Shown: one piece after another, positions 9,179-30,194 of the stretch
Numbering within the stretch: position 1 is the first letter of the stretch
Layout of the letters: the number at the start of each line of letters is the position of its first letter
From: Halobacteriovorax sp. GB3
GTDB taxonomy: Bacteria > Bdellovibrionota > Bacteriovoracia > Bacteriovoracales > Bacteriovoracaceae
Assembly (NCBI RefSeq): GCF_028649655.1
Contig: NZ_JAQSLN010000004.1
Location: 186,001 to 250,000, forward strand
Direction: 5' to 3'
DNA length: 64,000 nucleotides
Position numbers and translations under genes: made by a program
Notes under the pieces: generated by a model
The model's input: only the letters and a program-made list of their open reading frames with translations
Databases searched by the model: none
What the model was told of the DNA's origin: nothing

Positions 9179-9721
9179 GTGAAACTTTTAGTCTTACTCT
9201 CTCTTTTTATTTCAAACTGCGTACTTGCAAAGACAAGGATCGCCTTTTTTAAAACTTATTCGCAGGGACAACTTATTCAGTTTAGTGCTGAAGGTCAGTA
9301 CACGCATGTTGCCATTGAGTTTGAAGATAAATGGATTCATGCTGACCCCTATTACGGTGTGGTTGCCATCAACCATCTAAGTGAAGTCTCCATCAAAGAA
9401 TATCAAGTTGACTTATTAGAGCACCCAGACGATCTCATACCAACAAAACTCATTGAAAAATATCTTGGACTTCCTTATGACCACAATTTTACTTGGTCTG
9501 ATGATGCCATTTACTGCTCTGAACTTATTGCAAAGTTACTAGGACTTAAGCCAAGGCCAATGAAGTTTAACACTGAAATCTGGAATAATGACTATACATC
9601 TAAGAGAGGGCTTCCTGGACTTAGTCCAGATGATCTTTTTTCCAACCTTATGGAAAAGGGATTTTCAATCAAGTCGAAAAGTTGCTTTAATAAAATGAAA
9701 ACATTTTCAGAGGTTCGATGA
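9179..9721 (+). CDS. Secreted YiiX/YebB-type permuted papain-fold hydrolase
   Basis: The protein has a signal peptide (cleavage near VLA). The permuted NlpC/P60-like catalytic pattern is readable: THVAIEFEDKWIHAD supplies the histidine, and DDAIYCSELIAKLLG supplies the cysteine of the YCSEL motif typical of YiiX/YebB-like proteins. It has 180 residues, a GTG start and acts in the periplasm, presumably on cell wall peptides, amides or lipids. Its stop overlaps the BioY start (ATGA). The substrate is not known for the family. Confidence 0.8.
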   Translation: MKLLVLLSLFISNCVLAKTRIAFFKTYSQGQLIQFSAEGQYTHVAIEFEDKWIHADPYYGVVAINHLSEVSIKEYQVDLLEHPDDLIPTKLIEKYLGLPYDHNFTWSDDAIYCSELIAKLLGLKPRPMKFNTEIWNNDYTSKRGLPGLSPDDLFSNLMEKGFSIKSKSCFNKMKTFSEVR

Positions 9722-10224
9722 AAGTTCTTAGAGTTGTGATACTGGCCATTATTCTTGGTCTATTTGCACAAGTTGATTTTAAAATTCCTGCGCTACCAGT
9801 TTCATTTTCTGGTCAAACTTTTTTCATTCTCTTGAGCTTTTACTTTATTACAAGAAAAGAACTCTTCTCATATCTCGTTTGTTATTTAGTTTTTGGTATA
9901 CTCGGTCTTCCGGTTTTTGCTCAAATGAGAAGTGGGCTCGATGCATTTACTGGACCTAGCTTTGGCTACTTTATGGGATTTCTCCTAATGCCAGTCTTTC
10001 TGCGCTTCCACTATCGTAAGCTAGAGGTGTTTCAATCAATTTTTATGCTCTTTTGCGCACACCTTATCATTTTGGGTGTCGGAACATTGGGGCTTCTAAG
10101 ATATATGGATATTCCAGAGGCATTAGACAAAGGGTTCTACCCCTTTTTAAGTGCTGCTCTTTTGAAAGCAGCACTAATATATTTTTGTGTTTCGGCTTAT
10201 CGCTACTTTAAAAAACTAAATTGA
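9718..10224 (+). CDS. bioY: BioY-family biotin transporter (ECF S component)
   Basis: This is an integral membrane substrate-binding subunit of about six helices. The BioY landmarks appear in order: PALPVSFSGQTFFILLSF, GILGLPVFAQMRSG, and GPSFGYFMGFLL. It has 168 residues, slightly short. No bioM/bioN genes accompany it, so it may work alone or with a shared ECF module. It is translationally coupled to the YiiX-like gene and convergent with the transglycosylase, overlapping it by about 20 bases. There are no biotin synthesis genes here, so uptake may substitute for synthesis (inference). Confidence 0.85.
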   Translation: MKVLRVVILAIILGLFAQVDFKIPALPVSFSGQTFFILLSFYFITRKELFSYLVCYLVFGILGLPVFAQMRSGLDAFTGPSFGYFMGFLLMPVFLRFHYRKLEVFQSIFMLFCAHLIILGVGTLGLLRYMDIPEALDKGFYPFLSAALLKAALIYFCVSAYRYFKKLN

Positions 10225-10955
10225 ACATCTTTTGGATAAGCTTCTATACTGTTTCTCATAACATCTTTGGCATAGATAATTTTATTGTCACCTTCTTCTC
10301 CATTATAGATCTTTAAGGCCTCAAAATAGATGCTACTCTTCTTTAAGTTCTTATCTCCTTCTCGATCATTGATACGGGAGAGATAAATTTTTAGCAATAT
10401 AGAGCCATAGACAATAGAAGCTTCAATATCGTTTTTCAGCTCTTCTTTTAATTGAACATAGAAATCAGGGTGATCACTTTCAACACTAACTCTATCCCAA
10501 AGTTCAACCCAACCCTCATTTACACAGTATTTAACCTTATCGTTAAGATACTGAATGTTTTTATAATGAGCGCCTTCGCGTCCACGAAGGCCGAGTTGAT
10601 CGTTAACTTCTTTTAAAGCGATACTTGTAAATTGAGTTAAACCAGCAGCTCCAGTAGGACTCACAACTTTAGCGCGAAAAGAAGATTCCTTATCAACCAG
10701 TCCAGTGAAAACCCAAGGATCAATGCCAAAGCACTTTGTAATTCTAATAATATTTGAAGCGAGCTCAACTCTTTCATCAGAAGAAAGCATTGGATTTACT
10801 TTTTTGATGTGATTATTGATTTGCTCTACAGTTGGTTTCAATCGATAGAGAGAATAATTTATGGCCAGGGAGTTTGGCTTTACCCAATAACCCTTTTTAT
10901 CAGCAAGAACAGATAGCGACATTATCGCTATAGCTAAGATTAGAATTCTTTGCAT
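10203..10955 (-). CDS. Secreted lytic transglycosylase-like protein (SLT fold)
   Basis: The protein has a signal peptide (cleavage near VLADK). The SLT signature is clear: PWVFTGLVDKESSFRAKVVSPTGAAGLTQF, where the glutamate of KESSF is the expected catalytic acid and GAAGLTQF is the substrate-binding loop. It has 250 residues. It would cleave peptidoglycan glycan strands. It is monocistronic and convergent with bioY. A predator could use such an enzyme on prey or for its own remodelling; the sequence does not say which. Confidence 0.85.
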   Translation of the reverse strand: MQRILILAIAIMSLSVLADKKGYWVKPNSLAINYSLYRLKPTVEQINNHIKKVNPMLSSDERVELASNIIRITKCFGIDPWVFTGLVDKESSFRAKVVSPTGAAGLTQFTSIALKEVNDQLGLRGREGAHYKNIQYLNDKVKYCVNEGWVELWDRVSVESDHPDFYVQLKEELKNDIEASIVYGSILLKIYLSRINDREGDKNLKKSSIYFEALKIYNGEEGDNKIIYAKDVMRNSIEAYPKDVQFSFLK

Positions 10956-12847: not shown

Positions 12848-13279
12848 TTAAAGCTTGATAACGTTTGAAATTGCTGAGTGAATTTCTTGAGAAGTGTGAC
12901 CTTTAACGAAGATCTTAGAGAAGTTCTTCTTAAGTGCCATCTTATTAGCTGTGTCAGCTTTAATAAGAGTTAGGTAAGCATCAAGAGTTTGGCCTTCACC
13001 TCTAGCAATGTCATTTGAAAGAGCTACTTTGTTGTTATCGATGAAAGAAACAGCTGCAACAGTTGCAGTTTTTGCATCTTCACATCCAAGAGTACCTGTA
13101 GACATACCAAAAGTTTGGTTACCTGATGTTCCGTTAAAAGTTGCAGCAAGTACGTTGAATACTAGACCATCTTTTCCTTTGAAAAGAATTGAACCAAGTC
13201 CACAACCAGCTGGTCCGTGAGCGGCCATTACAGATCCAGACATCATAATTCCTGCAGTTAGTGCTAACATTTTTTTCAT
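12848..13279 (-). CDS. DUF3015 family secreted protein
   Basis: The protein has a clean signal peptide (cleavage after VMAA), then the DUF3015 pattern GPAGCGLGSILFKGK...VLAATFNGTSGNQTFGMSTGTLGC, with two cysteines that likely pair. It has 143 residues. It uses frequent codons and a good AAGGAG site, consistent with abundant expression. The family is widespread in marine Proteobacteria and of unknown function. No intergenic terminator is seen before the DUF4105 gene. Confidence 0.85.
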   Translation of the reverse strand: MKKMLALTAGIMMSGSVMAAHGPAGCGLGSILFKGKDGLVFNVLAATFNGTSGNQTFGMSTGTLGCEDAKTATVAAVSFIDNNKVALSNDIARGEGQTLDAYLTLIKADTANKMALKKNFSKIFVKGHTSQEIHSAISNVIKL

Positions 13280-21167: not shown

Positions 21168-21211
21168 TACGAAATCCAATTGAGGGCCATTAGCTCAGTT
21201 GGTTAGAGCCC
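21168..21211 (+). repeat. 44-bp direct repeat (copy 1) covering tRNA leader and 5' half
   Basis: This is identical over 44 bases to the segment at 21284-21327. It contains the 16 bases before the tRNA plus the tRNA acceptor 5' strand and D-arm. It indicates a segmental duplication of the tRNA locus. Confidence 0.9.
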
Positions 21212-21270
21212 TTAAGTCCTCCTATCGTCGGACTTAACATAACCGGGTGGTCACAAGTTCAAGTGATGGC
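21184..21270 (+). pseudogene. Broken CAU tRNA copy with a hairpin in place of the anticodon 5' stem (relic 2)
   Basis: The 5' half equals the functional tRNA. The 5' strand of the anticodon stem is then replaced by TTAAGTCC-(10 nt)-GGACTTAA, a perfect 8-bp hairpin. The copy resumes at CATAACCGGGTGG through the T-loop and loses the 3' T-stem and acceptor. It cannot fold into a cloverleaf. Confidence 0.75.
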
Positions 21271-21299: not shown

Positions 21300-21376
21300 G
21301 GGCCATTAGCTCAGTTGGTTAGAGCCCCCGGCTCATAACCGGGTGGTCACAAGTTCAAGTCTTGTATGGCCCACCA
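21300..21376 (+). tRNA. tRNA with anticodon CAU (tRNA-Ile2 with lysidine, or elongator tRNA-Met)
   Basis: A full cloverleaf is present: acceptor GGGCCAT/ATGGCCC, D-arm GCTC/GAGC, anticodon stem CCCGG/CCGGG with loop CTCATAA, T-stem ACAAG/CTTGT, discriminator A and an encoded CCA. The C4-G69 and C5-G68 pairs match known TilS recognition elements, favouring tRNA-Ile2 (k2C-modified CAU), but elongator Met cannot be excluded. It is not the initiator, because the first base pair is intact (G1-C72). It is the left anchor of the repeat array that follows. Confidence 0.9.
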
Positions 21377-21488: not shown

Positions 21489-22481
21489 ATGAAATTTCTT
21501 ATTATATTATTAGCTTTTGTATCATGTGCTCACAAATCTTCTCTAAAAGATGTTGACGTCGATTTATATCAAATGACCAGCTCACAGATAAACTCTTTAC
21601 CTGATGACTTATGGCCAGGCTTTAAAGAGTACAATCCTCTTGTCATTTACAACACAATTGAAGGTCAATACTTACTCGGTGCTGACAAATATCCTGTTAT
21701 GGGATTTAACAAATACAACAAGGACCATAAACATCCACTTGGACAAAAGTTCCAAAAAAGGGTCTATAATACGGCTTTCCCCAAAGAAATATTTCAAAAG
21801 CATTATCCAACATTAACGTCATCAGTCTTTATGATCGATTCACTTGAAAGAATGAAATCACTTGGAAGAAACTGGAACATATATGACTGGAGTACTATTT
21901 ACATTCACGAAATCTTTCACTTATTCCAAGGTCCAATATGGTCTAAAGAGATAATAGGAAAAAAGGAAAATATCGACTCAACACCACTTCAAAAACTAAA
22001 AAAAGATAAGAAGAACATTAAACTTGTTGTCGAAGAACAGAAGATTGTACGAAGTGCTCTGCTTAAACTTGATTTCACTAATAAAAAAGAAATCAAAGAA
22101 ATGTGTAAGAGCCTAATAACCAAACGAGACAGTAGGTACAAATACTTAAAAAGACAAATACAACATTCTGTTAAAAATGAGCAGTTCTACGAAACCCTAG
22201 AAGGAACAACTCGCTATATTGAAAAACACATCGACCTATATTCAATTTCGGATTCAAATAAAAGAAAATATATGAATAAAGATCTATTAGCCTATCTAGA
22301 TAAACATGGAATTAAAACTTACTATTACATGCTTCATCAAATTGAGCCTGGAGAAAACTATTACTACGAAACAGGTTTTGGCTTATCACTATTATTAGAT
22401 AAACTTGAACCTAAATGGAAAAACAAGGCATTCAAAAGCACACTATGGGAGCAAGTAACAGCAAGTTGTAATCGTATATAA
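21489..22481 (+). CDS. Array unit 1 cargo: lipoprotein with HExxH-type metallopeptidase motif
   Basis: A short signal peptide ends in a lipobox (AFVSC), so the protein is probably lipid-anchored. A catalytic-type helix IYIHEIFHLFQG carries HExxH; a later ETLEGTTRYIEKHIDL could provide the third ligand glutamate, as in gluzincins. It has 330 residues. It is unusual in the array in being on the plus strand; its TAA stop is provided by the ATAACC at the left edge of the next repeat. No close family is recognised. Confidence 0.7.
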   Translation: MKFLIILLAFVSCAHKSSLKDVDVDLYQMTSSQINSLPDDLWPGFKEYNPLVIYNTIEGQYLLGADKYPVMGFNKYNKDHKHPLGQKFQKRVYNTAFPKEIFQKHYPTLTSSVFMIDSLERMKSLGRNWNIYDWSTIYIHEIFHLFQGPIWSKEIIGKKENIDSTPLQKLKKDKKNIKLVVEEQKIVRSALLKLDFTNKKEIKEMCKSLITKRDSRYKYLKRQIQHSVKNEQFYETLEGTTRYIEKHIDLYSISDSNKRKYMNKDLLAYLDKHGIKTYYYMLHQIEPGENYYYETGFGLSLLLDKLEPKWKNKAFKSTLWEQVTASCNRI

Positions 22482-22670
22482 CCATAACTAAAACTTTTTC
22501 CTCACTGCTAAATGGCTATTTCATAAACTACTGAAAACTCATTTAAGCAACTCAAAATAATCAGACAAATATCACTGAGGAAAATAACCAAATCAAAGAA
22601 AAAGTAGAATTATATTAATGAGTTAGAACTGAGAAAGAAAAGTTCGCGCAAGCAACTGGATGGACCACCA
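22478..22670 (+). repeat. Array repeat R1 (full length)
   Basis: The left edge is TATAACCATAAC. TTTTTCCTCAC and CACTGAGGAAAAT are inverted around about 75 bp that includes GAAAACTCATTT and AACTCAAAATA. An AT-rich part with AGTAGAATTATATTAA follows, then GTTCGCGCAAGCAACTGG and the tRNA-like end ATGGACCACCA. It provides the stop codon of the unit 1 gene. Confidence 0.8.
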
Positions 22671-22850: not shown

Positions 22851-22943
22851 CAAGTCTTGTATGGCCCATACATAAACTTTTTGGGCGAACTTTCGCCCAC
22901 TTGGTTACACAAAAAAGCCTTCTTAACTGAAGGCTTTTTTATT
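22851..22943 (+). repeat. Copy of tRNA 3' end plus downstream flank and terminator
   Basis: Eighteen bases (CAAGTCTTGTATGGCCCA) are identical to the 3' end of the intact tRNA. They are followed by a diverged copy of its downstream flank, here with the perfect hairpin GGGCGAA-CT-TTCGCCC, and by an AAGCCTTC/GAAGGCTT terminator. This shows that the tRNA 3' region was duplicated with the units. Confidence 0.8.
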
Positions 22944-23984
22944 TCTATAATCTTGAATTGCTATATCTAAAGCATCCTGACCTGGCTCGCATTTAATATT
23001 TGGCTGAATGCCTACTTTCTCAAACTTGCGATTGTCTCTAAAAATATTTTTATGCGTAGAAATTTGAATACATAGCTTAGAATATGGAAGAACAATAATT
23101 CCAACATTACCAAATTCAATGCATCCATTTGTTGCCTGACCTACATAGTGAATTTGAGGATGATCTTCAAAACAAAGAGCTGTACTTTCACCACTAGACT
23201 TACAGTCGTTATCAATTAAAATATAGATAGGTTTATTATAACAATTACGGCCAACCTTAGTTACATCAGTACCACTACTATGCCTTAGCTCTCTACCTAA
23301 ACTTGTATTAAAGTTATTAAATTCAAAACGAAACTTATTAAAATACTCTTCATTCCTTTTATAAAATGTATTTGATTGAACTAATTTAACAAGAGCAGTA
23401 TTTAAAACTAGTTGAGAGTTAATTGGATGACAAAAGTCCTGGCCATAAAATAATTCAGCCATTTTATAACCATAGTAATCGTTACCACCACCATTACCTC
23501 TAAAATCAATAATAGTGAATTCACTGTTTATAAGATTTGATTCAATATCTATTAAAAATGATTTCCATAACTCTGAGTTTGGCATGGGGAAATGAGACAA
23601 GCCAATTAAGTTATAGTTTCCATCTTCAATTCTTCTTACGACAACTTCTTCTTCATCCGCAATATTTCTTCCAACCTCATATAATTTCGGTGATACTGAA
23701 CCAATTGATCTCTCAGCGTAGTTTTTCCATATTTTCAAATGATTGTCTTTGATGTTAGTGAAAATTTCCTTCAACGAAGAATATAATACCTCATTATCTT
23801 GTTCTTCTCGTAACAAGTTAACTTGATTAAGTAGTTCTTTAAACTCAGAAGGGTCAAGCCCAATAGAGCCAGCATATCCCTCCCTAAGAGTATAAATAAG
23901 AAGGTCAATATCTCGACTAATGGAAGCATCACTTGAGTTAAGACATTTTTCAATCGCTAATTCTTCATCTTTTATACTATTCAT
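22923..23984 (-). CDS. Array unit 2 cargo: S41-like (C-terminal processing) protease
   Basis: The S41 core is readable: FTIIDFRGNGGGNDYYGYKMAEL, then YILIDNDCKSSGESTALCFED with the expected catalytic serine in SSGES, IHYVGQATNGCIEFGN, and the closing GIQPNIKCEPGQDALDIAI. It has about 354 residues and no signal peptide, unlike most CtpA proteins. The start ATG lies inside the array repeat: AGG-N8-ATG favours the second of two in-frame ATGs (MVM). The stop overlaps the repeat-borne terminator. There is no PDZ domain. Confidence 0.8.
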   Translation of the reverse strand: MNSIKDEELAIEKCLNSSDASISRDIDLLIYTLREGYAGSIGLDPSEFKELLNQVNLLREEQDNEVLYSSLKEIFTNIKDNHLKIWKNYAERSIGSVSPKLYEVGRNIADEEEVVVRRIEDGNYNLIGLSHFPMPNSELWKSFLIDIESNLINSEFTIIDFRGNGGGNDYYGYKMAELFYGQDFCHPINSQLVLNTALVKLVQSNTFYKRNEEYFNKFRFEFNNFNTSLGRELRHSSGTDVTKVGRNCYNKPIYILIDNDCKSSGESTALCFEDHPQIHYVGQATNGCIEFGNVGIIVLPYSKLCIQISTHKNIFRDNRKFEKVGIQPNIKCEPGQDALDIAIQDYRNKKAFS

Positions 23985-24175
23985 AACCATAACCTAAGTT
24001 GTTTCCTCACTAAATTATTCCAAGCTTTTAAGCCATTGAAAACTCATTTCAACAACTCAAAATAAACAGACAAATATCGCTGAGGAAAATAACCAAACAG
24101 CAGAATTTCATGAATTAAATAAAGAACTTACGAATGAGGAAGAAAAGTTCGCGTAAGTAACTGGATGGCCCACCA
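23982..24175 (+). repeat. Array repeat R2 (full length)
   Basis: The left edge CATAACCATAACCT encodes, on the minus strand, the ribosome site and start of the S41-like gene. GTTTCCTCAC and CGCTGAGGAAAAT are inverted as in R1. It ends GTTCGCGTAAGTAACTGGATGGCCCACCA, whose last 11 bases are identical to the tRNA 3' end. The tail with AAGCGAACTTTCGCCCAC and a terminator follows. Confidence 0.85.
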
Positions 24176-24212
24176 GTTTTTCAATAAGCGAACTTTCGCC
24201 CACTTGGTTACG

Positions 24213-24251
24213 CAAAAAAGCCTTCTTTTAATCGAGAAGGCTTTTTTATTT
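24213..24251. terminator. Terminator after repeat R2
   Basis: AAAAAAGCCTTCT and AGAAGGCTTTTTT form a long stem with T-runs on both strands. It ends the minus-strand metallopeptidase gene of unit 3. Confidence 0.8.
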
Positions 24252-24986
24252 CGTTATCCCCCATACAGCTTCAATCATTTTAAAACCGGTAGAATCATAC
24301 TTTCTAAGCTCTCGCTTTGTTTTCGGGTAATAATCATTATTTCCAAAATAAGCTTCAGTTAACTCTGCAAAGTATTCTCTCATATTAGAGGAAGCATATG
24401 CTTTAACTAGTCTAGTAGGTTTTGATCGAGACGGGACTTCTCTATATAGGTTGTGCTTAACTGAGCTCTCAAATGCTTTCTTAATCAGTATATTCTCATC
24501 ACCCAAGTGAACCCAATGATAAGCATGACTCAATTCATGTAATAAAGTCATTGGTCCCCATTCAAAAACTTTATGGTGATACAAAACTTTGTCAGGATTA
24601 ATCATATGAATCCCACCGGCCATATCTGGGTTTAAACCATGTTCACTTAGCCAATTTCTACTTCTATGAAAAACGAAAACACCTAACTCTTTAGAACGAA
24701 AAGGATATTTCTTTTCACTTGAGACCCAAATTTTCACACTCTTAAGAAAAGTTAATGCTTTATTGGGAATGTTCAGTGTTATTTTCTTTAAGTCTTTTTC
24801 AAACTGTCTCTTAATATCAGAAAATAGTTTCTTATCTCGCTTTATAGGTTCTTCAATAAAGACATCCCATCCTTGTATATCAATACAGATATAGGACCAC
24901 TTTTGATCTCCATCATTAAAGCTAACAATTTTATCCTTAGCCTCTACGGCTATCGAAAAAAGAAATATTAGAACTATAAGTCTCAT
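24246..24986 (-). CDS. Array unit 3 cargo: secreted metallopeptidase (HELSH)
   Basis: The protein has a signal peptide (RLIVLIFLFSIAVEAK). The catalytic helix TLLHELSHAYHW carries HExxH, and MREYFAELTEAYFG, about 60 residues later, offers a glutamate, fitting a gluzincin-type zinc site. It has about 246 residues. The start lies in the array repeat (MVM start; the second ATG is preferred by spacing to AGG). It is a periplasmic or secreted protease; the family is not recognised with certainty. Confidence 0.75.
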   Translation of the reverse strand: MRLIVLIFLFSIAVEAKDKIVSFNDGDQKWSYICIDIQGWDVFIEEPIKRDKKLFSDIKRQFEKDLKKITLNIPNKALTFLKSVKIWVSSEKKYPFRSKELGVFVFHRSRNWLSEHGLNPDMAGGIHMINPDKVLYHHKVFEWGPMTLLHELSHAYHWVHLGDENILIKKAFESSVKHNLYREVPSRSKPTRLVKAYASSNMREYFAELTEAYFGNNDYYPKTKRELRKYDSTGFKMIEAVWGITK

Positions 24987-25178
24987 AACCATAACCTATT
25001 TTGTTTCCTCACTATATTTCAGCATGTTCACAACTTATTGAAAACTTATTTCACTAACTCAAAACAAGCATACAAATATCACAGAGGAAAATAACCTTAA
25101 AGGCCAAAAAGTAGAATTATTTTAAGTGCTCAGGATTAAGGAAGAAAAGTTCGCGTCAACGTTGCTGATGGACCACCA
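24984..25178 (+). repeat. Array repeat R3 (full length, diverged)
   Basis: It starts CATAACCATAACCTATTTTGTTTCCTCAC and keeps ACAGAGGAAAATAACC and AGTTCGCGT; it ends GCTGATGGACCACCA. The tRNA-flank tail and terminator present elsewhere are missing here. Confidence 0.8.
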
Positions 25179-25243
25179 AAAATCCCTTTAGGTAAGTGAA
25201 TATATTTAAAGTTTTTTTTATTTCTCTATTTAATTCAAGATAT

Positions 25244-25651
25244 CTATTCTGTTTTACATTTAAGGTAGTATATTGGTTCTTTTTTTGTTCTCTCATTAAT
25301 AGATATAACATACTCTCCCTTAGCATTCCTACCTTGAGGAGACCAAATATTTACACCTTGCTCTATGTCTTTAAATGAAATTAGTAAATCTGGTGCACTT
25401 GAAGATGGTGTAGTTTTTTCTGCATAAACAGTATAAGAAAATCTTTCTCCAATATAGTTTGCAACAATAGTATTCTTCTCCTTTTTAAATGGCTTCGCTT
25501 TTACTTCGGACCCCTTTAAAAGAACTGATGTGTTCTGGCCACCAGCCTTCTTCTGAACATGGACTCCACAAGTTAAATCAGATATTGAATTTGTTGCAGC
25601 GTAAACAGACACTGCCATAAAAATTGAAAAAGAAGTGATCATAATTTTCAT
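25244..25651 (-). CDS. Array unit 4 cargo: small exported protein, unknown function
   Basis: The protein has 135 residues. A signal peptide (cleavage near VYAA) is followed by a beta-rich domain with two cysteines at its ends (DLTCGVHV and YYLKCKTE), likely a disulfide. AAAGGAAATAAA precedes the ATG. It is the last of three minus-strand genes in the unit. No family is recognised. Confidence 0.65.
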   Translation of the reverse strand: MKIMITSFSIFMAVSVYAATNSISDLTCGVHVQKKAGGQNTSVLLKGSEVKAKPFKKEKNTIVANYIGERFSYTVYAEKTTPSSSAPDLLISFKDIEQGVNIWSPQGRNAKGEYVISINERTKKEPIYYLKCKTE

Positions 25652-25707
25652 TTTATTTCCTTTTTAATTAATTAGTTCTCTAAATGACTAACACTAAATT
25701 TAAAAAA

Positions 25708-25995
25708 CTAAGCAGCATCTTTAAGCTTCTCTATCTTTTTCAAAAGAGAACTATATCCCTGCATTTTCTTAATTCCATTTGGAAATAAAAGACTCTCTAC
25801 TCGAACACCATACAAGACAGAAAACTTCGCCGCCAACTCTACTCCAATATTTCGCCTATCGTTCTCAAGAGCAGAAAGATTAGAAACTGAAATATCAATC
25901 GCTTCTGAGACTTGAGCTTGAGTAAACCCAAATCTCACTCTCATGGCCTTAAGGATTTTTCCTGAAGTTAGTTTTACTTTATCAATAGAGCCCAT
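25708..25995 (-). CDS. Array unit 4 cargo: XRE-type helix-turn-helix regulator
   Basis: The protein has 95 residues. HTH_3 domain at about residues 9-65: LKAMRVRFGFTQAQVSEAIDISVSNLSALENDRRNIGVELAAKFSVLYGV. The start with AAAGGAAAAAAT before ATGGG is preferred over an upstream ATG. It lies between a GNAT gene and a small exported protein gene, all in one direction. No toxin-like partner is evident, so an antitoxin role is possible but unsupported. Confidence 0.85.
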   Translation of the reverse strand: MGSIDKVKLTSGKILKAMRVRFGFTQAQVSEAIDISVSNLSALENDRRNIGVELAAKFSVLYGVRVESLLFPNGIKKMQGYSSLLKKIEKLKDAA

Positions 25996-26054
25996 ATTTT
26001 TTCCTTTAATTATAATCATGATCAGGCGTAATTTTTATCACTTTGATAACAATT

Positions 26055-26636
26055 CTAGACTTCACACATTGATAAATTAAATACTTCGGAAACTTTTTTA
26101 CTAGGTCTTCTGTACCCAGTTCTAAAATCAACCGCGTCCCTTTCGTCTTTATTAAAAAAGTATGTAAGTTCAGCTAATGTTCCATATCCTGCATTAATCT
26201 TCATTCCAGTGAAAACAAACCCAGCTTTTAACTTAGGTATAATAATGTCGTTATTAGTAGTGTTGTGATAACTTTGAATTTTTCTATAACCTATATCTTT
26301 TGCTCTCTCTATAGTCTCTTGAAGCATCAATTTATATAAACCTCTACCTCGAAAGTCTTTTTTAACGTAAGACATACACATCATAATTGTATCTATCGAA
26401 ATTTGATTAGAGAAAGATCGTGCAACGACAACATCATCTCGCTTTACTATAAAATATAAAAATGCCTCATCCTTAAAATCTGGCTTAATAGATCTATACC
26501 TTTCTTTTTCTTCTTCAGAATAGAAGATAGAATTTCCGCTATGTAAGAATTCTTGAAATTCTTCATTAGATTCTTCTTTAAATCCATCGAAAAAAACTTC
26601 ACTCGATACACATTCAATTATAAAACTCTCGTCCAT
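26055..26636 (-). CDS. Array unit 4 cargo: GNAT-family N-acetyltransferase
   Basis: The GNAT core is MMCMSYVKKDFRGRGLYKLMLQETIERAKDIGYRKIQSYHN, with the R-G-R-G-x acetyl-CoA loop, followed by NDIIIPKLKAGFVFTGM. It has about 193 residues. It is the first gene of unit 4. Its MVM start is encoded by repeat R4, like the genes of units 2 and 3; AGG spacing favours the second ATG. The substrate is unknown. GNAT genes are common cassette cargo in integrons. Confidence 0.85.
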   Translation of the reverse strand: MDESFIIECVSSEVFFDGFKEESNEEFQEFLHSGNSIFYSEEEKERYRSIKPDFKDEAFLYFIVKRDDVVVARSFSNQISIDTIMMCMSYVKKDFRGRGLYKLMLQETIERAKDIGYRKIQSYHNTTNNDIIIPKLKAGFVFTGMKINAGYGTLAELTYFFNKDERDAVDFRTGYRRPSKKVSEVFNLSMCEV

Positions 26637-26841
26637 AACCATAACCTTTTTTGTTTCCTCGGATAATTATCCCAAGCTTTTAACTTGTTGAAAACTCATT
26701 TAATAAGTTCAAAATATATAGGTAAATATCGTTGAGGAAAATAACCTTCACTATAAAAAAACAGAATCATATTAATATCTTACAAGTGAGGACTGAAGCC
26801 GAAGGGTTCAGAGTTCGCGTAAGCAACTGAATGGACCACCA
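26634..26841 (+). repeat. Array repeat R4 (full length)
   Basis: The left edge CATAACCATAACCT provides the start of the GNAT gene. It contains GTTTCCTC and GTTGAGGAAAAT, then a hairpin CTGAAGCC-GAA-GGGTTCAG, AGTTCGCGTAAGCAACTG and ATGGACCACCA. It continues into a tail TTTTTTGGGTGAACCATTGCCCACTAAGTTA close to the flank of the intact tRNA. Confidence 0.85.
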
Positions 26842-26906
26842 CAGATTTTTTGGGTGAACCATTGCCCACTAAGTTAAGAAAACAGATCAAATTCCGAAGA
26901 GATACT

Positions 26907-27746
26907 ATGTCGCTAAACTTCAATAAATCACTTGTTCTACCTTGGTCAGATGAACTCAGTCAAAAAGAACCATACGAGTATCCTTTTCTATCTTCTTATG
27001 TGAGAAAGAATAAAACTCTTCACTACATAGCTACACTGCATTCAACTGAAGAAGGTTCTGAAACATTCAAATTGATAGAAGAGACGATTAAAAAGAATTC
27101 AATCAATATTGTTATTGTTGAAGGAATTCCTAATTCGCGAGGTATATCGCCAGACTCATTTAAGAATTGGGCAAACAACCAAGGTAAAGAAGGAAGATAC
27201 GATGGCTTTGAAACTGCTTTCACAATTAAAACTTCAGTAGCACTAAATATTTCATTCATTGGTGGTGAACCGGAAGAGATATTTATTTATGATAAATTAG
27301 TAAGTCAAAACTTTAAAATAGAAGACTATCTTTTCTATACCTTCATCCAGCAACTCTTTCAGGCCAAGGAAGCAAAGACTCTAGACACTCTATCTCTAGA
27401 AAGTAAATTCAATAACTTCATAAAACAAAAAATATCTCAACTTAACATCAATAAAAACTTTACTCTAAATGACTTTTACGACTGGTATCTATCGAATAAT
27501 TTAGCATCATTCAATATAGACGACATTATTCCAGAAACTTGTGCTCCTTACTCATCAGGAAGATTACTTACTCAAAAAGTCTCATCCGCAATTTGTATAC
27601 TTCGAGACCAATTTATTGTTTCTGTTATCGAAAAATCTTTGAATAGTTATAATAATGTTTTAGTTGTTTATGGTGGTAGCCACTGGTCAACTCAAAGAGA
27701 ATCACTAGAGAATACTTTAGGAGTACCAAAATTTAGTCAACTATAA
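26907..27746 (+). CDS. Array unit 5 cargo: TraB/TIKI-like protein
   Basis: The protein has 279 residues and no signal peptide. An N-terminal IATLHSTEEGSETFKLIEE and INIVIVEGIPN, and a C-terminal NNVLVVYGGSHWSTQRESLE, follow the TraB/GumN/TIKI layout, where GxxH motifs at each end form the metal site. It is a plus-strand gene; its TAA is followed six bases later by a fresh ATAACCAT repeat edge. The upstream in-frame TTG lies within the repeat tail, so the later ATG with AGAGA is preferred. Assignment is tentative. Confidence 0.55.
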   Translation: MSLNFNKSLVLPWSDELSQKEPYEYPFLSSYVRKNKTLHYIATLHSTEEGSETFKLIEETIKKNSINIVIVEGIPNSRGISPDSFKNWANNQGKEGRYDGFETAFTIKTSVALNISFIGGEPEEIFIYDKLVSQNFKIEDYLFYTFIQQLFQAKEAKTLDTLSLESKFNNFIKQKISQLNINKNFTLNDFYDWYLSNNLASFNIDDIIPETCAPYSSGRLLTQKVSSAICILRDQFIVSVIEKSLNSYNNVLVVYGGSHWSTQRESLENTLGVPKFSQL

Positions 27747-27750
27747 ATTC

Positions 27751-27858
27751 ATAACCATTACCAGGCCAAAGAAAAAGTTGAATCATATTAAACAATTAGA
27801 ACTAAAAACTGAAGATACAAGGGTTCAGAGCTCGCCTAAGCAACTCGATGGACCACTA
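27751..27858 (+). repeat. Array repeat R5 (internally deleted)
   Basis: ATAACCATTACC jumps directly to CCAAAGAAAAAGTTGAATCATATTAA, so about 80 bp of the repeat centre (the part between the TTTCCTCA/TGAGGAAA arms) is missing. The hairpin CTGAAGATACAAGGGTTCAG and the end CTCGATGGACCACTA remain. Confidence 0.75.
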
Positions 27859-28893: not shown

Positions 28894-29102
28894 CATAATC
28901 ATGACCTAAATAGTTTCCTCACAACATTATTCCAAGTTCACAACCTATTGAAAACTCATTTAATCAATTCAAAATATACAGATCAATATCACTGAGAAAA
29001 AGAACCAAACTAAAGAAAAATAAGAATTATATTAAACTCTTGGATCTGAGGACTGAAGCCGCGAGGGTTCAGAGTTCGTGCAATCAAATGGATGGCCTAC
29101 CA
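28894..29102 (+). repeat. Array repeat R6 (full length)
   Basis: The left edge is diverged (CATAATCATGACCT). GTTTCCTCAC and CACTGAGAAAAAGAACC follow, then AAGAATTATATTAA, a GCGA-loop hairpin CTGAAGCCGCGAGGGTTCAG, AGTTCGTGCAATCAAATGG and ATGGCCTACCA. A truncated tRNA-flank tail (TTTTGGGCGAACAAATGCC) follows. Confidence 0.85.
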
Positions 29103-29655: not shown

Positions 29656-29712
29656 CATAACCATAACCTGTTCTGTTTCCTCAAAGAATTATTCCAAGCT
29701 TTCGATTAAAAA
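29656..29712 (+). repeat. Array repeat R7 (left part only)
   Basis: CATAACCATAACCTGTTCTGTTTCCTCA and ATTATTCCAAGCTTT are kept; the rest of the repeat, including the tRNA-like end, is gone. It abuts the 3' end of the next minus-strand gene. Confidence 0.75.
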
Positions 29713-29726
29713 TTGATTTTTACTAA

Positions 29727-30194
29727 TTATCTTTGAATAGCTGACGGACTTGCCTTTATAGTTTCACTTGAGTTCGACTCTGTCTGCTTAAGCAAATGTC
29801 TAGAAGAGTTATTGATGCTATCATCTCTTCTATAGACAAGACCATTACAAGTAATCAAACCATCGCCACTATCAAGAGTGCAATCTTGACGTTTTGCAAG
29901 TTTGCTCTGGCAAGACACTTCTAATTGCATGCAGACTTCATGTGGGTTCATATTGTATAATTTCCCTAATTGCATATACTTTAAATCACCTTGCGGATTT
30001 GAAGCTCCGTATCTGGAATTATACATATCTACTTTACGTTTAAAAAAATTGTGATTCGCGTTCCCTGTATTCATCATTCCTGTAAAAGGAGCTGGAGAAA
30101 GTTCCTGGCGCGGAATATCAGATTCGTTCCAATCAGTTTCATTTGCACTTGTAGACATAGAAGATAAAAGTATTAACATTAACAATATTTTCAT
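29727..30194 (-). CDS. Array unit 8 cargo: exported protein, unknown function
   Basis: The protein has 155 residues from the ATG at the signal peptide (MKILLMLILLSSMSTSANE). The mature part has cysteines in HEVCMQLEVSCQS and RQDCTLDSGDGLITCNG, probably two disulfides, and a Ser/Asn-rich tail. An in-frame ATG nine codons upstream would precede the signal peptide with charged residues and is less likely. No family is recognised. Confidence 0.65.
   Translation of the reverse strand: MKILLMLILLSSMSTSANETDWNESDIPRQELSPAPFTGMMNTGNANHNFFKRKVDMYNSRYGASNPQGDLKYMQLGKLYNMNPHEVCMQLEVSCQSKLAKRQDCTLDSGDGLITCNGLVYRRDDSINNSSRHLLKQTESNSSETIKASPSAIQR

Follow-up and report, generated by a model that had tools for sequence, protein, structure and literature searches.

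The window analyzed here, a stretch of 64,000 nucleotides (nt) from the Halobacteriovorax/Bacteriovorax-type genome of Halobacteriovorax sp. GB3, contains an array of gene cassettes adjoining a tRNA gene with the anticodon CAT, tRNA(CAT). The cargo genes are spaced by a repeated block of ~190–210 nt (R block), and unrelated cargo genes often open precisely at one edge of this block. We consider it probable that horizontally mobile cassettes are stacked in tandem behind the one tRNA(CAT), that the repeat forms their conserved right end, and that it supplies expression signals to its cargo.

The array starts directly 3′ of the tRNA, the gene order at the anchor being dapF, the intact tRNA and the first unit.

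21300–21376, plus strand: intact tRNA with CAT anticodon, the array anchor (ARAGORN, tRNA-Met; Rfam RF00005, 71 bits); it could alternatively be a lysidine tRNA-Ile2.

Each R block extends from the edge, CATAACCATAACCT, to a decayed tRNA 3′ end, ATGGACCACCA. Rightwards from the edge, it comprises one to five ATAACC hexamers, TTTCCTCAC, a conserved TTGAAAACTCATTT stretch and GTGAGGAAA, and it ends with AGTTCG, 12–14 variable bases and ATGGACCACCA. The sequence of this terminal piece is that of a tRNA acceptor 3′ end, now degraded. Ends of the ATGGNCCACCA type are found 3′ of most blocks. The units are stacked at one tRNA, a copy of whose 3′ end delimits each of them. Many units have, 3′ of the tRNA end, a terminator hairpin of the type AAAAAAGCC...GGCTTTTTT, resembling the one behind the intact tRNA. 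Block identity within the window is ~72–80%. The blocks, to which no strand is assigned, are as follows (ORF, open reading frame).

22477–22670: block R1, from edge TATAACCATAACTA to tRNA-like ATGGACCACCA (profile, 85 bits).
23982–24175: block R2, with edge, GTTTCCTCAC/GTGAGGAAA arms, promoter-like element and tRNA-like 3′ end (profile, 100 bits).
24984–25178: block R3 (profile, 91 bits).
26634–26841: block R4 (profile, 91 bits).
27750–27858: block R5, internal deletion, edge CATAACCATTACC.
28894–29102: block R6, edge CATAATCATGACCT, no long ORF opening at the edge (profile and ORF offsets).
29656–29727: block R7, truncated, exact edge, the ORF there broken after 10 aa (profile and ORF reading).

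The exact 14-mer CATAACCATAACCT (AGGTTATGGTTATG on the minus strand) occurs at 23982, 24984, 26634 and 29656, and with up to two mismatches it has 9 matches, as against 0.36 expected in shuffled sequences; diverged edges lie at 22477, 27750 and 28894. A preliminary description of this DNA had stated that three unrelated minus-strand genes begin at the edge as Met-Val-Met, with AGG eight bases before the second ATG. The S41, metallopeptidase and GNAT ORFs indeed open in this way at the 14-mers at 23982, 24984 and 26634.

22923–23990, minus strand: unit 2 cargo, Peptidase_S41, Met-Val-Met start, probable true start ATG 23984–23982 (ORF, Pfam).
24246–24992, minus strand: unit 3 cargo, M90-like metallopeptidase with a signal-peptide-like N-terminus, Met-Val-Met start, second ATG 24986–24984 (Pfam match below cut-off).
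26055–26642, minus strand: unit 4 cargo, GNAT acetyltransferase, Met-Val-Met start, second ATG 26636–26634 (ORF, Pfam).

The distance between AGG and the second ATG, re-measured, is 8 nt, which falls in the 5–9 nt range of most other genes in the window that have a Shine-Dalgarno sequence.

A profile built from nine blocks was used to search other genomes (G and L numbers are our own designations). Strong matches were obtained in G003, G010, G078, G079, G091, G092, G093, G094, G098 and G110, and weaker ones in G082; the block-bearing genomes number about a dozen, all within the family. No block was found outside the array in its own genome, nor outside the family at E 1e-4 in a phylum sample of 291 genomes. 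Two of four contig pattern matches (Clostridia and Syntrophomonadaceae) were judged by profile to be chance, and the other two were known array genomes. In every examined strong-block locus that takes in the flank, the array begins at the same tRNA(CAT); no tRNA was seen in the two contigs of G078 or in the G082 piece.

To evaluate the start codons quantitatively, we scored ORFs of at least 80 aa at 34 block edges from 12 genomes, using other ATGs within 300 nt on the same strand as controls. The terminal ATG is kept at 20 of the 34 edges and opens a long ORF at 12 of these 20, compared with 27 of 206 control ATGs (Fisher p = 6.6e-6, conditional on the presence of the ATG). When 33 edges were aligned by offset, long ORFs started at the edge in 12 cases and at the in-frame ATG six bases upstream in 9, with at most two at any other position. 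The 12 edge-start cargos are an S41 peptidase, an M90-like peptidase, two mutually non-matching GNATs, a methyltransferase, a small membrane protein, a P-loop kinase, an APH-type kinase, an NAD epimerase, a glyoxalase-fold protein, a 132-aa protein of no named family, and a nucleotide-binding fragment running into the end of an ISL3 transposase. They have no mutual similarity, and most belong to different Pfam families. Thus, the recurrence of such starts in other array members, which had been set beforehand as a test, is borne out by unrelated cargos of many genomes, and no Met-Val-Met start of this kind was found among the non-array homologues examined.

The epimerase of G079 allowed us to ask where the native start lies. 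It begins MVMKKVLVLGG, and the native Met of about two dozen non-array homologues aligns with its second Met, the preceding residues in those homologues being unrelated (RVM, ALM, MNM, GYGM and others). The way the test was constructed places the second ATG in 12 of the 12 edge-start cases; in the position of the first there is ATA in L091 and L092 (9293) and GTG in L043 (9146). Because the second ATG aligns with the native epimerase start while the first is sometimes lost, initiation likely occurs at the second (last) edge ATG, the first Met-Val probably being an optional extension. By this alignment, the junction between block and gene falls precisely on the gene's native start codon in the one family that could be tested. 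The notion that the repeat supplies the start therefore needs rewording: the start region lies recurrently at the edge, but the epimerase, whose native Met is the second ATG, was not lent a foreign one.

The GGTTAT hexamer is present in one to five copies, in frame. GNAT edges have two hexamers in the window and three in G094, both before M-D-x-x-x-[IV]-I-E-C-V-S-S-E-V-F, showing that the number of hexamers changes, in frame, ahead of a start that stays constant; the truncated relative of the unit 4 GNAT that lies at the G094 edge reads MVMVMDKKYVIECVSSEVF. At L085:10080–10116, an edge with five ATAACC hexamers yields a 17-codon MVMVMVMVM leader overlapping a gene that starts in another frame with its own GGAGG.

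Reading towards the cargo, the blocks contain TTTTCA-17-(TG)GAATAAT, followed by GTGAGGAAAC and AGGTTATG, an arrangement kept in most of the closer blocks and diverged in distant ones; GTGAGGAAA plus AGGTTATG, and TTTTCA-17-TGGAATAAT, are conserved upstream of the cargo. Promoter-like elements (by consensus match) and terminator-like hairpins in the window are listed here.

24014–24042, minus strand: promoter-like TTTTCA-17-AATAAT preceded by TG, reading into S41.
26666–26694, minus strand: promoter-like TTTTCA-17-GATAAT preceded by TG.
22911–22940, minus strand: terminator-like hairpin, which the S41 gene enters, ending NKKAFS and stopping in the loop.
24214–24247, minus strand: terminator-like hairpin, its edge overlapped by the metallopeptidase stop TAA.

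The terminator edge GAAATAAAAAAGCCTTC(A)ATTAA, a stop donor that the preliminary description had overlooked, donates the stop to three cargos, namely the metallopeptidase (TAA), S41 (NKKAFS-stop) and a kinase of G098 (NKKAFN-stop); the repeat is the source of the C-terminal residues that unrelated proteins have in common. The S41 relative in G012 reads through a different terminator and ends NKKAPAKN-stop. The block edge itself had been described as the stop donor for plus-strand cargo, of which the window holds two genes.

21489–22481, plus strand: unit 1 cargo, 330 aa, lipoprotein-like, TAA in the R1 edge (ORF).
26850–27746, plus strand: unit 5 cargo, 298 aa, stop preceding edge CATAACCATTACC at 27750 (ORF).

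The unit 1 TAA does lie inside an edge, although this edge is the diverged copy TATAACCATAACTA at 22477 and not the 14-mer shared by the other genes; unit 5 stops just before its edge. In about five cases the stop of a plus-strand cargo falls no more than a few bases from the edge, and it lies inside the edge only in unit 1 of the window and, loosely, in G110; one further case of this type, in G092, is an antisense ORF. Stop donation by the block edge is thus the weaker part of the proposal and occasional only. A decayed relative of the unit 1 gene lies beside the same tRNA in G001 (same genus, nearest relative), and a cargo 58% identical to that of unit 5 stops at the identical offset from its edge in the G092 array.

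We compared cargo identities with those of DapF, the neighbor of the tRNA. The Rha proteins of the arrays are 92% identical between G010 and G098 and between G003 and G010, where the DapF sequences are 39–41% identical; S41 is 75% identical between G000 and G012, against 42% for DapF. The blocks do not cluster by genome, those of the window having their closest relatives in G092 and G094. These comparisons indicate that the cassettes move horizontally. No Phage_integrase or Resolvase gene was found near the array in the genomes tested, PF00589 matches being on other contigs or far off. As the units are mobile and no integrase lies near the arrays, they probably move by an enzyme acting in trans. 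The common AGTTC and CCACCA boxes point to the tRNA T-loop/acceptor as a candidate recombination site, in keeping with the description of the ssrA islands of Dehalococcoides (PMC3146451).

Several observations concern the tRNA and its repeats. Just 5′ of the intact tRNA, at 21184–21270, lies a damaged tRNA copy, its anticodon stem interrupted by an inserted TTAAGTCC...GGACTTAA hairpin, and before this copy a further tRNA fragment; the array tRNA has been duplicated or hit repeatedly. An Rfam search gave the tRNA as its sole match. Some blocks contain a right box, AGTTCG...CGAACT, with one compensated case in L086 (AGTTCGTGT...ACACGAACT); a hairpin role for it as a universal feature was rejected, the box being missing from many blocks. 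An origin of the edge in the tRNA anticodon loop is kept as an idea: CATAACC does lie within CTCATAACCGGG, but the match covers 7 bases only. In genomes lacking R blocks, this position is taken by different repeats of the tRNA 3′ end. Behind the tRNA in L170 (G008) and L169 (G096) there are short gene-free units of a different type with the tRNA 3′ end repeat, for example GGTGTTCAAGTCACCGATGTCCCACCA in G008, and a second kind of unit end, TTAAGGACAYYAAGTTCATAAAG then ...CCACCA, is common to G012 and G003 (L167:3600–3700, L044:10795–10840).

The most recurrent gene across the arrays encodes a 156-aa Rha-family protein, present in seven genomes in up to three copies with 71–94% identity (L044:10325–10795; L043:7116–7586; L086:8496–8966 and 9787–10257; L092:8351–8821, 9656–10126 and 12904–13278; also L087, L088 and L090); it may belong to the mobile unit itself. 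The G003 array includes an Ntox50-like toxin domain fragment (L044:8776–9135). At 25708–26050 of the window lies a helix-turn-helix antitoxin-like gene, 41% identical to one in G003 that is located 3′ of a 104-aa putative toxin; here it is preceded only by a toxin C-terminal remnant (ITPDHDY) and joined by the GNAT cassette, making unit 4 a mosaic.

On the reading that we favor, a unit consists of the tRNA 3′ end, usually a terminator hairpin, mostly one gene, and then the block, which often terminates exactly on the cargo start codon. Expression of the cargo would be driven from the block by a promoter and a weak ribosome-binding site, with initiation most likely at the last edge ATG and AGGT as the Shine-Dalgarno sequence; the upstream Met-Val pairs would be by-products of the in-frame GGTTAT repeat. 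The terminator at the opposite end of the unit would halt transcription, with a stop codon donated in some units, and a newly arrived ORF joined at its ATG would be expressed independently of its neighbors. It is plausible that any inserted open frame would be expressed from the repeat. Insertion was probably the work of a site-specific recombinase acting at the tRNA T-loop/acceptor (AGTTC...CCACCA); we place this enzyme in trans because none of the arrays examined encodes one.

Several points weigh against this reading. Eight of the 20 intact edge ATGs open no long ORF, several cargos start 25–60 nt from the edge with their own signals, and AGGT is a weak Shine-Dalgarno sequence. The promoter-like site is a consensus match, the block around it may be conserved for other reasons, and a recombinase could be hidden in unsequenced gaps of the draft genomes.

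Alternatively, the units might be decayed prophage or phage-satellite remnants at the tRNA, the blocks being attachment-site arms; the coincidence with start codons would then go back to one ancestral element, its lead gene having been swapped repeatedly by homologous recombination between blocks. The spread of Rha (Phage_pRha) through the arrays, block identities that make recombination possible and the toxin-gene remnant in the mosaic unit 4 fit this explanation. It is nevertheless unlikely, since no other phage genes were recognized in the arrays and no integrase or resolvase near them in the genomes tested, and homologous replacement alone does not put 12 unrelated genes exactly at an ATG. 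Carriage of the block by phages was also rejected, as an exact-pattern scan of IMG/VR gave six matches of which the profile accepted none as a real block.

A true integron-type system, in which the block would be an attC-like folded single-strand site acted on by an IntI-like tyrosine recombinase with CATAACC/GGTTATG boxes as core sites, seems to us more doubtful still. It would account for tandem single-gene units, boundaries near start codons, exchange between genomes, the inverted arms GTTTCCTCAC/GTGAGGAAA and the AAC...GTT box orientation, and the integron core site likewise donates translation signals (PMC8876359). On the other hand, the RYYYAAC...GTTRRRY core boxes of attC were not recognized by eye: the edge, GTTATGG, misfits GTTRRRY, and GGTTAYG, as a right box, is limited to some of the blocks. 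The block is 190–260 nt long, cargo lies in both orientations, the fold of one block as DNA is only moderately better than shuffles (z −2.1), and the units bear the 3′ end of the tRNA that anchors them. An IntI-type tyrosine recombinase, required for a complete integron but not for a cluster of attC sites lacking an integrase (CALIN), was not found in or near the array. The misfitting boxes and mixed orientation led us to reject attC identity for the block. That genes landed near an expression-inert repeat by chance and those using its ATG were kept by selection is very improbable, because, although some edges lack a start and distances vary in diverged blocks, the Fisher test, the native start aligned to the edge in one well-sampled family and the conserved promoter-like spacing all contradict it.

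Integron biology still asks how genes that lack promoters turn into expressible cassettes with precise boundaries. The array described here provides a second, unrelated-looking case for comparison, in which unrelated genes are trimmed to the start codon and have their other end close to a terminator, the repeat containing promoter-like and stop signals. It reveals a route of gene exchange among predatory bacteria, and the short block, expected to express any ORF set at its edge, is a possible tool. More tentatively, the array might represent an undescribed tRNA-anchored cassette-capture system of Halobacteriovorax/Bacteriovorax-type predators, operated in trans, whose block is an expression unit that joins genes exactly at the start codon and provides the terminator and stop at their other end; such a system would match an integron in function but have an independent origin. 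A literature search, incomplete in coverage, found no description of this array.

Among known systems, accretions of cis-mobilizable elements (CIMEs) and integrative and mobilizable elements (IMEs) at tRNA genes resemble the array in consisting of integrase-less units, flanked by attachment-site repeats and stacked at a tRNA. They are usually multi-kilobase remnants of conjugative elements, and we know of no precise start-codon fusion in them. Tycheposons and related tRNA islands place marine bacterial cargo at tRNA genes and have helper-dependent variants; unlike the present array, in which no such components were seen, they use tyrosine recombinases and satellite modules. The ssrA-specific islands of Dehalococcoides likewise form a tandem series behind a single RNA gene; repeats of the 3′ end of that gene delimit each island, and a conserved motif lies immediately upstream of the repeat, in the T-loop region (PMC3146451). 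Many of these units have no integration module and were proposed to be cis-mobilizable elements; the islands are larger than our units, however, 16 carry a serine-recombinase module, and the portions of their description available to us contain no block-borne promoter or start codon (PMC3146451). Integron arrays and CALINs share with the present array the tandem, mostly single-gene, exchangeable units and a core that can donate codons, and CALINs also its lack of a neighboring integrase (PMC8876359, PMC7923331). Integron ORF-11 takes its stop codon from the attC core, and most cassettes have an initiation region of their own (PMC8876359). The present array differs from both in having no GTTRRRY site or intI, in the promoter-like elements and tRNA 3′ end of its blocks, in cargo of both orientations and in its tRNA anchor. 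The array is thus best read as an integrase-less accretion island at a tRNA site, whose unit end doubles as a predicted expression signal, integron-like in its logic.

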